A stretch of DNA of 5,802 nucleotides. It comes from Candidatus Aenigmatarchaeota archaeon. GTDB lineage: Archaea > Aenigmatarchaeota > Aenigmatarchaeia > QMZS01. Positions within the stretch are counted from its first letter, which is position 1. Every line of letters starts with the position of its first letter. The notes below the pieces were generated by a model. The model made no database searches. It was not told the origin of the DNA and saw only the letters and a program-made list of their open reading frames with translations. The translations under genes were made by a program, and so were the position numbers. The stretch is taken from positions 1 through 5,802 of the forward strand of contig JAFGCN010000005.1 of NCBI GenBank assembly GCA_016932615.1, given 5' to 3'. Shown piece after piece: positions 1,455 through 5,802 of the stretch.

Positions 1455-2720
1455 ATGAGAGACAAACTTCAGTACCGTACAGACCGCTTTAATGCGGATA
1501 CGCTCTTCCGAGATAATAAACCACGCCGTTCTGCACAGCCGGGAGCGCCCGATTCATCCCACCCTGTCGGCACGGCTCTAGTTACGACGACCCTGCTTTT
1601 GGGAACTGCTGCGGCGGCCGAGGATATCTCTCCTGATACGCTAAAGGACCTGTCAAAAGCGGTAAAATACCTACAAATGGGTGCTGACCTCACGCCTGGA
1701 GTAGATGCCAAATCGATAGTCGAAGAAAGGTACCTTGCTCTAGCCAATGGCTCATTTGGGGGTATCAAAGGGGGATACGGAGCAAAAAATGCAAGGGCCA
1801 ATGCGCTCGAACAACTAGAAAACTCTCAAAAAAAAGGACCTCTCACGAGAGCGCTTTCTCTTTTAGGTTGTGGCGCTCTAGCGCAAGATTACTCCTGTCC
1901 CGGTTTTGACGGCTCTGAATATGCTCACTACACCATTCCAATAAATTCCTCCTCAACATATCAACCCCTCATATATGATCCCTTTAAAAACGAGTCCATA
2001 TTCAGAACAGACCTATCAAATGACACTATCCGGCTGGTTTTTCCCAGCACCCCGGAACATATGAGCAATACCACAATGCCTGTCACCGACTACTATTTCC
2101 AGGACCCCTCCACCGGAAACCAAATAACAGCCTACCAAACATACACTCTTAACTTCGTCGACAGCCTTTCCGCTAACCTGGACGTGGTGCTCAACCACAC
2201 CAATCTCCGGTTAAATAAAACAAAAGAAGTTCCCATCGGCACAGACGGCACTGGCAGCATGACCTACTATGATGCCACTTTGTATGACCCATTCAATCCG
2301 GACTGTGCATGCGAAGTCCCAGTCTCCTACAATTTTCCGGGCAGAAGTAGCGCGAGAAACAACACCACAATGGAAGACCTTTTGGCATGTGTACGAAAAG
2401 ATGGCTTACTGGATGTGCGCAAGCTCTCCAGCACGTTTGGAAACTTCTCGACAAAGCCCGGCGAAATAGAAAGCTTGATGCGCGGACCCTATAGCCTGGA
2501 ACTAACAGTGGTATACAACTCCGGAGGGGAGCGAACCTATGGCCCAATATTCAAGGATATCCCCGCCATGCATGTTCCTTGGAATTTGGTTGGAGCAAAG
2601 GTTCCGCAAAATCCAAACCAGATCTACCTACTGCTCTATAGGAAACCCTTTGAGGGATTAGCTATCGAAGCATTCAATAGCGAGCTTTCCAGAGTAGAGG
2701 AAATTCCCAAGTATGCCTAA
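1455..2720 (+). CDS. Hypothetical exported glycoprotein, 421 residues
   Basis: I do not recognise a family. Residues 1-38 are charged and include RR at 24-25. Residues 39-55 (GTALVTTTLLLGTAAAA) form a hydrophobic segment ending in small residues, consistent with a signal peptide or an N-terminal anchor. Residues 56-134 look mostly helical, with a Gly-rich patch at 102-109. Residues 145-421 are polar and beta-rich, with repeated YDPF (174-177 and 277-280). Ten N-x-S/T sequons are present (N98, 164, 179, 189, 205, 247, 254, 302, 303, 330), nine of them between 164 and 330, which implies an extracellular, N-glycosylated body. Cysteines are at 139, 148, 284, 286 and 312. No catalytic motif is apparent. 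The first 38 codons use CGN for five of six arginines, unlike the AGR-rich ribosomal genes. The gene heads the surface cluster, with 25 bases to the next gene. Confidence 0.85.
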   Translation: MRDKLQYRTDRFNADTLFRDNKPRRSAQPGAPDSSHPVGTALVTTTLLLGTAAAAEDISPDTLKDLSKAVKYLQMGADLTPGVDAKSIVEERYLALANGSFGGIKGGYGAKNARANALEQLENSQKKGPLTRALSLLGCGALAQDYSCPGFDGSEYAHYTIPINSSSTYQPLIYDPFKNESIFRTDLSNDTIRLVFPSTPEHMSNTTMPVTDYYFQDPSTGNQITAYQTYTLNFVDSLSANLDVVLNHTNLRLNKTKEVPIGTDGTGSMTYYDATLYDPFNPDCACEVPVSYNFPGRSSARNNTTMEDLLACVRKDGLLDVRKLSSTFGNFSTKPGEIESLMRGPYSLELTVVYNSGGERTYGPIFKDIPAMHVPWNLVGAKVPQNPNQIYLLLYRKPFEGLAIEAFNSELSRVEEIPKYA

Positions 2721-2745: not shown

Positions 2746-3369
2746 ATGGCATACACCCTGCCAAAATACGCTCTACTTCTTCTCATAATAGTCTTAATTG
2801 TTGCCGTTGCAAGCTCTCAGAAGCCCACCCAAAAAGAGACCTCGTTTTTTGAATTACAGCCCGAAGCAATCCTTTTGTCAATTTCGTTTGACGGTTGGAC
2901 CCGAAGCAACCTTACGGCAGGGTCGAAAAACTGTGAAGAGATAAGTCTGCCGGATGGCAGATTCGCCTATTGTGATACCCCTGGCTTAAAGGAAAGCTCA
3001 TATGTTATTTGGAGTAAAGTTCCTCCAGAAGAGGGTTTTTTTAGGAAAGTAATATCCGCTGAAATCTTTGAATTTGAAGATAAATCCTACGTGAATACAT
3101 TTAACCTTACTGAATCGTTCCGGATAGCACCTGCGCTCATAAGCCAGACTGAATCTGGAAAACTGCGCATCGACAAGTACGGTGCCACGCTGTTCAGTTC
3201 AGAAAACCACCCCGATAACACCACTGAACCTCAGAAGGACTCCGAAGAATTGAAAAGTGAAACCCTCTACTTTGATTTGGTTCAAGGCGAGACGAAGGCC
3301 ATTGTCCTTACCTATTACGAGCAATACGAGGCCGAAGTCCAGCAGATAGTCGAACAACTGGCAAGATGA
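2746..3369 (+). CDS. Hypothetical membrane-anchored or secreted protein, 207 residues
   Basis: This protein is not recognisable by family. A very hydrophobic stretch at residues 8-22 (YALLLLIIVLIVAVA) after a single Lys is a clear signal peptide or N-terminal anchor. The remaining ~180 residues are soluble and appear mixed beta, with three sequons (N55, N120, N158). There are exactly two cysteines (C63, C76), which could form one disulfide in the exported domain. The last 40 residues are acidic and helical. No Shine-Dalgarno site precedes the ATG; an out-of-frame ATG lies at 2739. The stop overlaps the start of the next gene as ATGA (3366-3369), which implies translational coupling. Because the partner is the giant cysteine-rich protein, an accessory role such as anchor, chaperone or assembly partner is a reasonable inference, but it has no direct support. 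Confidence 0.85.
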   Translation: MAYTLPKYALLLLIIVLIVAVASSQKPTQKETSFFELQPEAILLSISFDGWTRSNLTAGSKNCEEISLPDGRFAYCDTPGLKESSYVIWSKVPPEEGFFRKVISAEIFEFEDKSYVNTFNLTESFRIAPALISQTESGKLRIDKYGATLFSSENHPDNTTEPQKDSEELKSETLYFDLVQGETKAIVLTYYEQYEAEVQQIVEQLAR

Positions 3370-5802
3370 AATACCTTCCCCTGCACGAGATTGCTTTATT
3401 TTGCCTCATTCTTAACGTCTTTGGGGGGCTAGCAGCAGCGGCATGTACCTGCGGCTCCTGCCAGTACTGCGTTTCGGGTCACGAAATATGCAGTGCCACC
3501 TGTTGGAGAACCTGTACCGATCCAGAAACGGGGGAGGATTATTATTGCAAGCCCTATTGCTGCGAACGTACGTTCTGTTGTGAAGTCTGCAGAAATTATT
3601 GCGCTGGAACAGACAGCAGCTGCGGCTGCACCTCTTGTAGCGATTGCACGGCACAGAACGGCTGGTACAATAATGGAGCGCCCTACGCCTGCTGTGTTGG
3701 AGAGTCCAGATGCACCTGCCAATACCAGGATTATAGAAACTACCACTGCTCTTCTACGTCATGCACATTCGAGAGTTGGCTGCATAGAACAATCCGGTAT
3801 GACTGTTACGACTGCAACAATAACAACCACTACCTGTGCTATGGCAATGACCTTTATTTCAGAGATTACTTCTGTTCTGGTGGTGCTTGCAGTTACACCG
3901 ACTCCTTCGTAAGAGACTGTTGCGGGGGAGAAGCATATGCTTCAGACGGTGACGGCGGAAATAACCCTTCCGTTACTGCGGGTTGCAGTGGGGGGATAGG
4001 GGCTGGCTGCAGCGGCAGCTCATGCTACACAACTCCCGGCGCAAGCGGAACAGACCATTGTGAAGGAACCTGCCATACAGGAATAAATGGGTGTTATTTC
4101 AGAGAATACTTCATTGCCGATTCCAGCGACGGGTGCAGTGGCCCAGACACCTGCACGTCAACAACCCATGATGCAGACACGAACCCAAATACCTGCAACA
4201 CCTGCCGCATCCAAAGGGACTCAACTCTCAGGTGGAACCTCGGCTGCTCGGGAGGGACAAGCTGCGCGTCTTCACCAAACACCTGCTGCGGGGATGACTC
4301 CGCAGAATACAATTCTACTTGCCAGTGCAACCCGGTTTCCTGCGCATGCGGCGGGGACCAGGAGGCCTGCTGCAGGACAAGCGACAGCTGCGTGTGGAGC
4401 GGAGGATGCTACCTTCACGACCACCAGGCGGACATCGACATAGACGGAAGCATAGAATACTGCTATCACGGGACTTGGTTTGCTTTTCCCGACCTGAACT
4501 CTAGCGAAACAAACCTATCCACAAACATTTCCATTGTCGACAGGGACAAGGAAAGCGCGGACACCCATGACAAAATCCTCATCACAATCAGGGTTTACGA
4601 CCAGGACGACTGGGATGCCAGCCACATCTACCTCACAATCCAGAATCCTTCCGGGGGCATAGAGATAAACCCGCAGGAGCTTTTCGGCGGATATGTCGAC
4701 TCCAAGCACTGGATTGCAAATTACACTTACGACCCCAGAAATGACGCTCCCCTTGGAAAGTACGACGTAACGATAAAAGCGGTAGACCTGAGGGGGTACT
4801 CCGCGCAAAAGACCTTTGAGGACGCTTTTACCGTAGAAGACCTCAATATAGCAACCACCTGGAGCGGAAACACAACTGACATTTACTTTACGGGAAACGC
4901 AAAAGAGATTTTTGCCAACCTTGGAATCTCGGAGATAATCTCGCAAAACTGCAGCGAGCCCTCCATAGTGGACATACCTGACGGAAACAACGATACGCGC
5001 AAGGACTATGTTTCCTTGCGGCTTTGCGGGGTAAACAATCTCACTGCGGGAACGTGCACAGTTTCGGCAGGGGCTTTCACCTGTTACGTCCAGGACATCA
5101 AAATCACAAACAAGTCGCCGTCTCTTTCTTATGTGCTTACCGACCCAAACCACATATCCGGGAGCCAGGACATATATGTACGGCTAAATGGGACAATAAA
5201 TGGCTTTGGCATAACTGACCCGGACAAGTATGTAAACCCCTGGCAGAACCTGACTTACCTTGTAGACTGCCAAAACACCGAAAACGTCGGCTGGTGGGGT
5301 GAGTTCTTCAACCAGACAAAAACAAAAATCCACTCGCCATCTTCCCTGAACCCCACAGGGGAAACGCACATTTCAGTCGATTACAGCGAAAGGCAGGCTT
5401 ACGTAAACCTCCGTGCGCCCGGAAGAACGCAGTTCAGCTATAATTCCCTGGCAAGCTTCGTTCTGGGAAAGTACGAGTATATCGCCGACCTCAGGTACTT
5501 CTGGCCAGAATATTTGGGTGGTTACGGCTTCACTCCATTCAACTACCAGATTGCAAACAGGAGCACGAATTACACCATTGCCGCAATTGACATAACACAC
5601 CACACCCTTCCTAAAAGAGTGATACGTGGAGAACTTATAGAGGGTGTGGTTGGCGGATACTTCATAGCATCCATGGACATTGATTACTGGGAGGTCGTGC
5701 AGGCAGCCAAGTACAGATGCACAAACAAGACAACTGAAGGGCGGTATTGGGTTACAAGCCACAATGTGACTTCGGGAAACGATACCGTGGAAATTCCCGA
5801 GA
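3366..5802 (+). CDS. Giant cysteine-rich, sequon-rich surface protein (C-terminus beyond window)
   Basis: The frame starts at the ATG overlapping the upstream TGA and stays open for 812 codons to the window edge, so it is incomplete. Residues 1-25 form a signal peptide (hydrophobic 9-24, then AAAA). Residues 27-366 hold 54 cysteines. They include C-x-C-x2-C-x2-C at 27-35 and again at 86-94, six CC pairs (65, 71, 109, 185, 307, 335), and repeated aromatic-CSxxxC units (near 123-133, 164-175, 244-263 and 290-300). From 378 the composition changes. An Ig/FN3-like beta-sandwich follows at about 385-492, with PLGKYDVTIKAVD typical of its last strands, then further beta-rich sequence with only six cysteines and 17 sequons. 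One sequon (N316) lies in the cysteine zone. The protein is surely extracellular and probably disulfide-bonded and glycosylated. Its function is unknown; a surface fibre, adhesin or S-layer-associated role is inference. Confidence 0.9.
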   Translation, partial: MKYLPLHEIALFCLILNVFGGLAAAACTCGSCQYCVSGHEICSATCWRTCTDPETGEDYYCKPYCCERTFCCEVCRNYCAGTDSSCGCTSCSDCTAQNGWYNNGAPYACCVGESRCTCQYQDYRNYHCSSTSCTFESWLHRTIRYDCYDCNNNNHYLCYGNDLYFRDYFCSGGACSYTDSFVRDCCGGEAYASDGDGGNNPSVTAGCSGGIGAGCSGSSCYTTPGASGTDHCEGTCHTGINGCYFREYFIADSSDGCSGPDTCTSTTHDADTNPNTCNTCRIQRDSTLRWNLGCSGGTSCASSPNTCCGDDSAEYNSTCQCNPVSCACGGDQEACCRTSDSCVWSGGCYLHDHQADIDIDGSIEYCYHGTWFAFPDLNSSETNLSTNISIVDRDKESADTHDKILITIRVYDQDDWDASHIYLTIQNPSGGIEINPQELFGGYVDSKHWIANYTYDPRNDAPLGKYDVTIKAVDLRGYSAQKTFEDAFTVEDLNIATTWSGNTTDIYFTGNAKEIFANLGISEIISQNCSEPSIVDIPDGNNDTRKDYVSLRLCGVNNLTAGTCTVSAGAFTCYVQDIKITNKSPSLSYVLTDPNHISGSQDIYVRLNGTINGFGITDPDKYVNPWQNLTYLVDCQNTENVGWWGEFFNQTKTKIHSPSSLNPTGETHISVDYSERQAYVNLRAPGRTQFSYNSLASFVLGKYEYIADLRYFWPEYLGGYGFTPFNYQIANRSTNYTIAAIDITHHTLPKRVIRGELIEGVVGGYFIASMDIDYWEVVQAAKYRCTNKTTEGRYWVTSHNVTSGNDTVEIPE
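3854..3872 (+). repeat. Internal direct repeat, copy 1 (YFRDYF unit)
   Basis: These 19 bases match 4094-4112 at 18 of 19 positions, exactly 240 bases (80 codons) apart and in the same reading frame. They encode the YFRDYF core of an aromatic-CSxxxC unit (residues 163-169). The nucleotide-level similarity suggests duplication within the cysteine-rich region, although the flanking cysteines do not align at this offset. Confidence 0.6.
4094..4112 (+). repeat. Internal direct repeat, copy 2 (YFREYF unit)
   Basis: This is the second copy of the 19-base repeat at 3854-3872, encoding YFREYF (residues 243-249). In this copy the cysteine that follows YF in copy 1 is replaced by Ile, and the CSG element occurs seven residues later (C257). 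This fits a diverged module with a small insertion. Confidence 0.6.

Follow-up and report, generated by a model that had tools for sequence, protein, structure and literature searches.

The gene that runs off the 3' end of the DNA analysed here appears to encode a membrane-anchored, Sec-exported surface protein with a crosslinked head and a glycosylated stalk, which would serve as a pilus-associated adhesin in host contact (estimated probability of about 0.55). The window, i.e. the whole stretch of 5,802 bp, is the entire contig C5 of a Candidatus Aenigmatarchaeota (DPANN) genome referred to as G000 (1.26 Mb, 29 contigs, 97% complete). Since the window is a complete contig, and the frame 3366-5802 has no stop up to its end, the giant gene is truncated by the assembly and not by a stop codon. 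The frame is real, as it lacks stops and aligns along its length with independent genomes. Feature coordinates are given in Table 1.

Table 1. Features of the giant gene and of the two ORFs preceding it, in window coordinates.
Feature	Position	Strand	Basis or remark
421-residue ORF, predicted exported, orphan	1455..2720	+	10 sequons versus 3.8 expected
207-residue ORF, membrane/exported, upstream of the giant	2746..3369	+	overlaps the start codon of the giant
Giant surface-protein gene	3366..5802	+	812 codons visible, open at contig end
Predicted Sec signal peptide, residues 1-26	3366..3443	+	MKYLPLHEIALFCLILNVFGGLAAAA; precedes the first Cys of the module
Cys-rich, sequon-poor N-terminal module, residues 27-366	3444..4463	+	54 Cys; residue counts
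CCGDD...ACC...CVW.GGCY...D.DG..EYC..GTW cysteine module	4233..4490	+	alignment; C-terminal portion of the Cys-rich half
Ig/MG2-like beta-sandwich domain, residues 373-496	4482..4853	+	AlphaFold2 model and structural matches
Sequon-rich, Cys-poor stalk, residues 378-812	4497..5801	+	17 sequons; counts, and homologs in G003, G002 and G010

At the other end of the window, the genes for uS19 and uL22 (214-1283; the uL22 ORF has a long C-terminal extension rich in lysine and alanine) are followed by orphan exported ORFs instead of uS3. The 421-residue ORF had no homolog in the 155 other genomes of the phylum, save one marginal short match, and no relative of the 207-residue ORF was seen in the loci examined. 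The 207-residue ORF and the start of the giant overlap in an ATGA (3366-3369), which suggests an operon and makes co-translation likely. A hydrophobic leader also starts the relatives of the giant in genomes G002 and G006. A lipoprotein reading of Cys27 was dropped as the lipobox is not conserved across relatives (AAA-C in the window, LAT-C in G002, compared by eye).

The stalk half was found in four other genomes of the same family, with 35-47% identity to G003, G002 and G010. The corresponding proteins comprise 1,609 residues in G003 (start cut, end complete), 1,569 in G002 (start complete, end cut), 1,890 in G006 (end cut) and 852 in G010 (complete). The survey of related genomes that the initial annotation had proposed thus recovered the same two-part architecture in G003, G002 and G006, where the Cys-rich N-half (about 570-640 residues) exceeds that of the window protein, and only the stalk in G010; the latter indicates that stalk and anchor are able to exist without the Cys-rich half. 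Across the phylum the stalk is rare (7 of 156 Aenigmatarchaeota genomes, 4 of 104 genera). The CCGDD cysteine module is far more widespread (21 of the 156 genomes, 17 of the 104 genera) and occurs in open frames as long as 9,724 codons, so that the giant of the window belongs to a class found throughout the lineage. The protein had been called unusual for archaea, which is only partly right, Cys-rich proteins of this kind being common within Aenigmatarchaeota.

These distributions bear on an alternative in which the protein is a structural surface-layer or envelope component, its Cys-rich part crosslinking the coat laterally and its glycosylated beta domains spacing the coat from the membrane. 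This is possible, at well below even odds: G000 and other genomes encode several Cys-rich proteins that contain this module, and the sections of PMC4858521 used here report, for archaeal type IV pilus loci, S-layer-like proteins that bear conserved cysteines and a C-terminal transmembrane (TM) segment, but a stalk confined to so few genera and a Cys-rich half that is absent in G010 are unlike an essential coat protein, and the length of this half differs strongly among close relatives. The best-fitting role would be that of an adhesin, or of a surface-layer component, that is anchored and has a link to the type IV pilus; adhesion in host contact is plausible.

Contig C9 of G000 (L011 143-12001) carries three consecutive large ORFs (1,209, 368 and >2,125 residues), each with the CCGDD module, the last sitting in a 3,961-codon open frame. 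In G147, contig C44 (L114 4975-20000) carries three Cys-rich giants in tandem; their C-termini all show FPGL followed by a hydrophobic segment and a basic tail, and resemble archaeosortase sorting signals. A contig break falls inside the giant gene in 4 of 5 family genomes (window 5802, the end of C5; L043 1; L012 1; L013 5939; L014 1), both halves of the gene lie on very short contigs in the window genome, and strain variation or repeats may break assembly within it. A viral origin was rejected, no relative being found in phage records and none for the Cys module in viral contigs.

The Cys and sequon (N-x-S/T) counts given for both halves in the initial annotation were all reproduced exactly: of the 61 Cys among the 812 visible residues, 54 lie in residues 27-366 together with a single sequon, and 6 in residues 378-812 together with 17 sequons. 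Cysteines are preferentially kept in the G002 relative (45 of 51 aligned Cys, or 88%, for an overall identity of 49%). Binding of a metal (Zn, Fe-S or Cu) by the Cys-rich half, instead of disulfide formation, seems improbable. Its 54 Cys are even in number with only 7 CxxC motifs, it matches no family, metal-binding or other, and it is predicted to be extracytoplasmic, with a sequon depletion (see below) that fits folding constraints in an exported state. What speaks for metal binding, and against the crosslinked head of the preferred reading, is that neither of the two families of disulfide-forming enzymes searched, VKOR and the DsbA-like Thioredoxin_4, was found in the 97% complete genome.

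Sequon numbers were compared with those expected in shuffled sequences. For the window giant, about 4 sequons are expected in the N-half and 5.5 in the C-half; the excess in the C-half was reached in none of 3,000 shuffles, and the depletion in the N-half, taken in this protein alone, is only suggestive (p about 0.08). Observed and expected numbers in the Cys-rich half and the other half, respectively, were 2 versus 10.4 and 43 versus 17.3 in G003, 2 versus 8.8 and 40 versus 18.2 in G002, and 8 versus 11.4 and 51 versus 24.9 in G006. The comparison was extended to 24 large Cys-rich proteins of the phylum, which are partly related and do not represent independent events, using 40-residue segments and expectations obtained by shuffling. 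Cys-rich segments contained 52 sequons versus 148 expected; for the Cys-poor segments of this protein set the numbers were 393 versus 200, with 21 of the 24 proteins agreeing in each direction; a slightly different segmentation gave 59 versus 156 in Cys-rich segments and 385 versus 202 elsewhere.

For N-x-S/T, the observed/expected ratio was 0.38 over the Cys-rich segments and 1.91 over the Cys-poor ones of these proteins; other exported-like proteins gave 1.63 and cytosolic-like proteins 1.05. The reversed control motif S/T-x-N gave 0.89, 0.97, 1.06 and 1.07 for the same four categories, and the D-x-S/T control was near 1 in the same Cys-rich and Cys-poor segments. That the pattern is a side-effect of composition, with no meaning for glycosylation or folding, is thereby made very improbable, as both controls stay near 1 where N-x-S/T departs in opposite directions, and the proteins are concordant; the weak N-half depletion in the window protein is the one result that would suit it. 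These data support selection across the phylum for sequons in Cys-poor parts and against them in Cys-rich parts. The simplest reading would be that the oligosaccharyltransferase encounters both halves, glycans being favoured on the stalk and disfavoured where cysteines must pair; an STT3/AglB oligosaccharyltransferase homolog is encoded in G000. The idea of two stabilising strategies in one exported protein was thus retained for the two-module split, which the phylum-wide sequon statistics back more strongly than the window alone; the glycans and disulfides themselves are inferred.

The Cys-rich half had no Pfam match up to an E-value of 1, the window protein and its four relatives gave nothing meaningful in Pfam (G003 and G010 being without match at an E-value of 0.1), and PDB sequence profile searches with both modules returned chance-level matches only; a match to a well-characterised family with this architecture, which would have spoken against the initial proposal, was thus not encountered in either resource. 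AlphaFold2 gave a mean pLDDT of 37 for the whole visible protein, in which the Ig domain alone is usable, and no confident model of the Cys-rich half (pLDDT <50), whose head is a candidate for a new fold. Residues 373-496 modelled alone reached a pLDDT of 80.5, with nine strands of at least 3 residues, so the Ig-like fold anticipated in the second half is upheld as a predicted beta-sandwich. Using VIA-align, the domain matched SYG-2 D4 (Z 10.3, 2.4 A, 100 residues) and an alpha2-macroglobulin domain (Z 10.1, 2.7 A, 95 residues), with Z of 10-11 to MG2 domains (alpha2-macroglobulin, complement) and to Ig domains; the best Foldseek E-value was 3e-5. G003, G002 and G006 also contain a domain related to it. 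The predicted beta-sandwich is a common arrangement, which says nothing on function.

The signal leader is visible in the window, and the window gene is cut before its end. The complete C-termini of G003 (...NVFSEALGSDNLIYLLLLFFASFILLIKRKL) and G010 (...NVYSEAIGSENIFFLILLFLFVVALNFKLNKREICK) consist of a single hydrophobic segment and a basic tail, and a matching C-terminal membrane anchor (...NVLSEAVGGGNLVGIALAMLASIGIILL...) opens contig C16 of G000 (3,424 bp). There it is followed by two pilin-like genes and then by a type IV pilus ATPase, in the same order as 3' of the giant in G003, with identities to G003 of 72% for the ATPase, 60% for pilin A and 44% for pilin B. The contig extension called for in the initial annotation thus leads to a probable continuation; C5 and C16 have no 16-mers in common and do not overlap, and their join is based only on synteny. 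If C16 continues C5, about 154-176 residues would be lost between them, and the full giant would comprise about 1,050 residues and carry the C-terminal anchor itself. A 912-residue protein on contig C14 of G000 (L018 10637-13375) has only the C-terminal anchor module in common with the giant, and lies near genes homologous to those on the contig of the G006 giant.

The giant adjoins pilins and a pilus ATPase or TadC directly in G003 and G006, and presumably in the window genome by way of C16. In G006 it is preceded by two TadC genes, then a pilin-like gene and an archaeosortase that scores above the TIGR04178 cut-off; in G002, by a pilin-like gene and an archaeosortase. In another family of the phylum, G154 encodes an ATPase, a Cys-rich giant of 1,950 residues (145 Cys) and FlaJ consecutively, the ATPase of G150 is followed by a giant that has 352 Cys and a length of at least 3,915 residues, and in G148 a giant precedes FlaJ. 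Most of the window's family keeps the pilin-pilin-ATPase block without the giant, which makes the giant an accessory of the block. Phylum-wide, CCGDD proteins were not convincingly enriched next to pilus genes, which most of their loci lack; together with the block lacking the giant, this means that the pilus link may be one of location only. A pilus-type ATPase frame elsewhere in G000 (C8, 28232-29608) is broken by one TGA, which could be a sequencing error, a pseudogene or recoding.

The archaeosortase of G000 (TIGR04178, 36.7 bits for a cut-off of 23) is encoded on C26, away from the giant. In the window's family, the four C-termini with the S-E/N-A-x-G motif, TM and basic tail all stay below the NCBIfam sorting-signal cut-offs, the C-terminus of the window protein lying outside the contig, and the FPGL-TM-Lys/Arg ends of Cys-rich giants from other families scored at best 16.8 bits for PEF-CTERM (curated cut-off 23). 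The family is similar to substrates of the PEF-CTERM/archaeosortase systems (TIGR03024, TIGR04178) in having an archaeosortase directly upstream in G002 and G006, but differs in these endings.

The giant can be placed among a known kind of protein, the large anchored surface proteins associated with type IV pili in archaea, and its Cys-rich head makes it an extreme variant of that kind. Makarova, Koonin and Albers (2016; PMC4858521) describe, in the sections used here, S-layer-like or adhesin archaeal proteins associated with type IV pili, the Cys-bearing ones coming from Thermoproteales. Judged by these descriptions, they share with the window's family large size, export, conserved Cys, a C-terminal TM anchor (presumed for the window protein itself) and a pilus locus with pilins, a secretion ATPase and TadC, whereas an extreme Cys head combined with a sequon-rich Ig stalk does not appear in the descriptions. 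The Nanohaloarchaeota giants SPEARE and SVXNc_0300 (up to 9,409 residues, proposed host binders) are, in the portions of PMC10266531 drawn on, also DPANN surface proteins with a Sec signal, Ig-like domains (in tandem there) and a TM segment (presumed for the window protein), but this segment is followed there by a VirB4/TraG-like ATPase domain, and no Cys-rich head is described for them. That ATPase domain is absent from the complete C-termini of G003 and G010, which end in short basic tails, and neither protein has a Pfam match at an E-value of 0.1. The attachment-like proteins of DPANN cluster 2 type IV pilus loci (PMC11291902) are similarly encoded by accessory genes within pilus loci, Aenigmarchaeota included, but are coiled-coil proteins instead of a Cys-rich head on a beta-sandwich stalk. 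A literature search for Cys-rich Aenigmatarchaeota surface proteins or archaeosortases in DPANN found none on the subject.

In the preferred reading of a pilus-associated adhesin, the giant chain would be exported by the Sec pathway, as its leader predicts, AglB would N-glycosylate the stalk, which is built of Ig/MG2-like and further beta domains in this reading, and the head cysteines would oxidise into crosslinks, giving a compact, probably disulfide-crosslinked distal head. A single C-terminal transmembrane segment, as read from the anchor sequences, would hold the giant in the membrane, with possible processing of this anchor by an archaeosortase. The glycosylated stalk may then hold the head outward, near or with the type IV pilus, where it could touch another cell, and gene neighbourhood suggests that the giant is part of the type IV pilus gene set in the window's genus and in g3.

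A broader proposal, tentative and rather doubtful at present, is that Aenigmatarchaeota possess a lineage-wide class of pilus- and archaeosortase-linked surface proteins whose crosslinked Cys heads, of no known fold, are held free of glycans by selection as the stalks accumulate them, and that their oxidative folding needs neither VKOR nor a known DsbA; this would imply an unrecognised disulfide-forming route in DPANN archaea. That two common disulfide-enzyme families were not found poses a concrete biochemical question. Host attachment in DPANN is an open question, and the attachment proteins are largely unannotated, as illustrated by the giant of the window with its 0 Pfam matches. The opposition of sequons and cysteines offers a sequence-only test of which surface-protein domains of uncultured archaea are extracellular, carry glycans or contain crosslinks.
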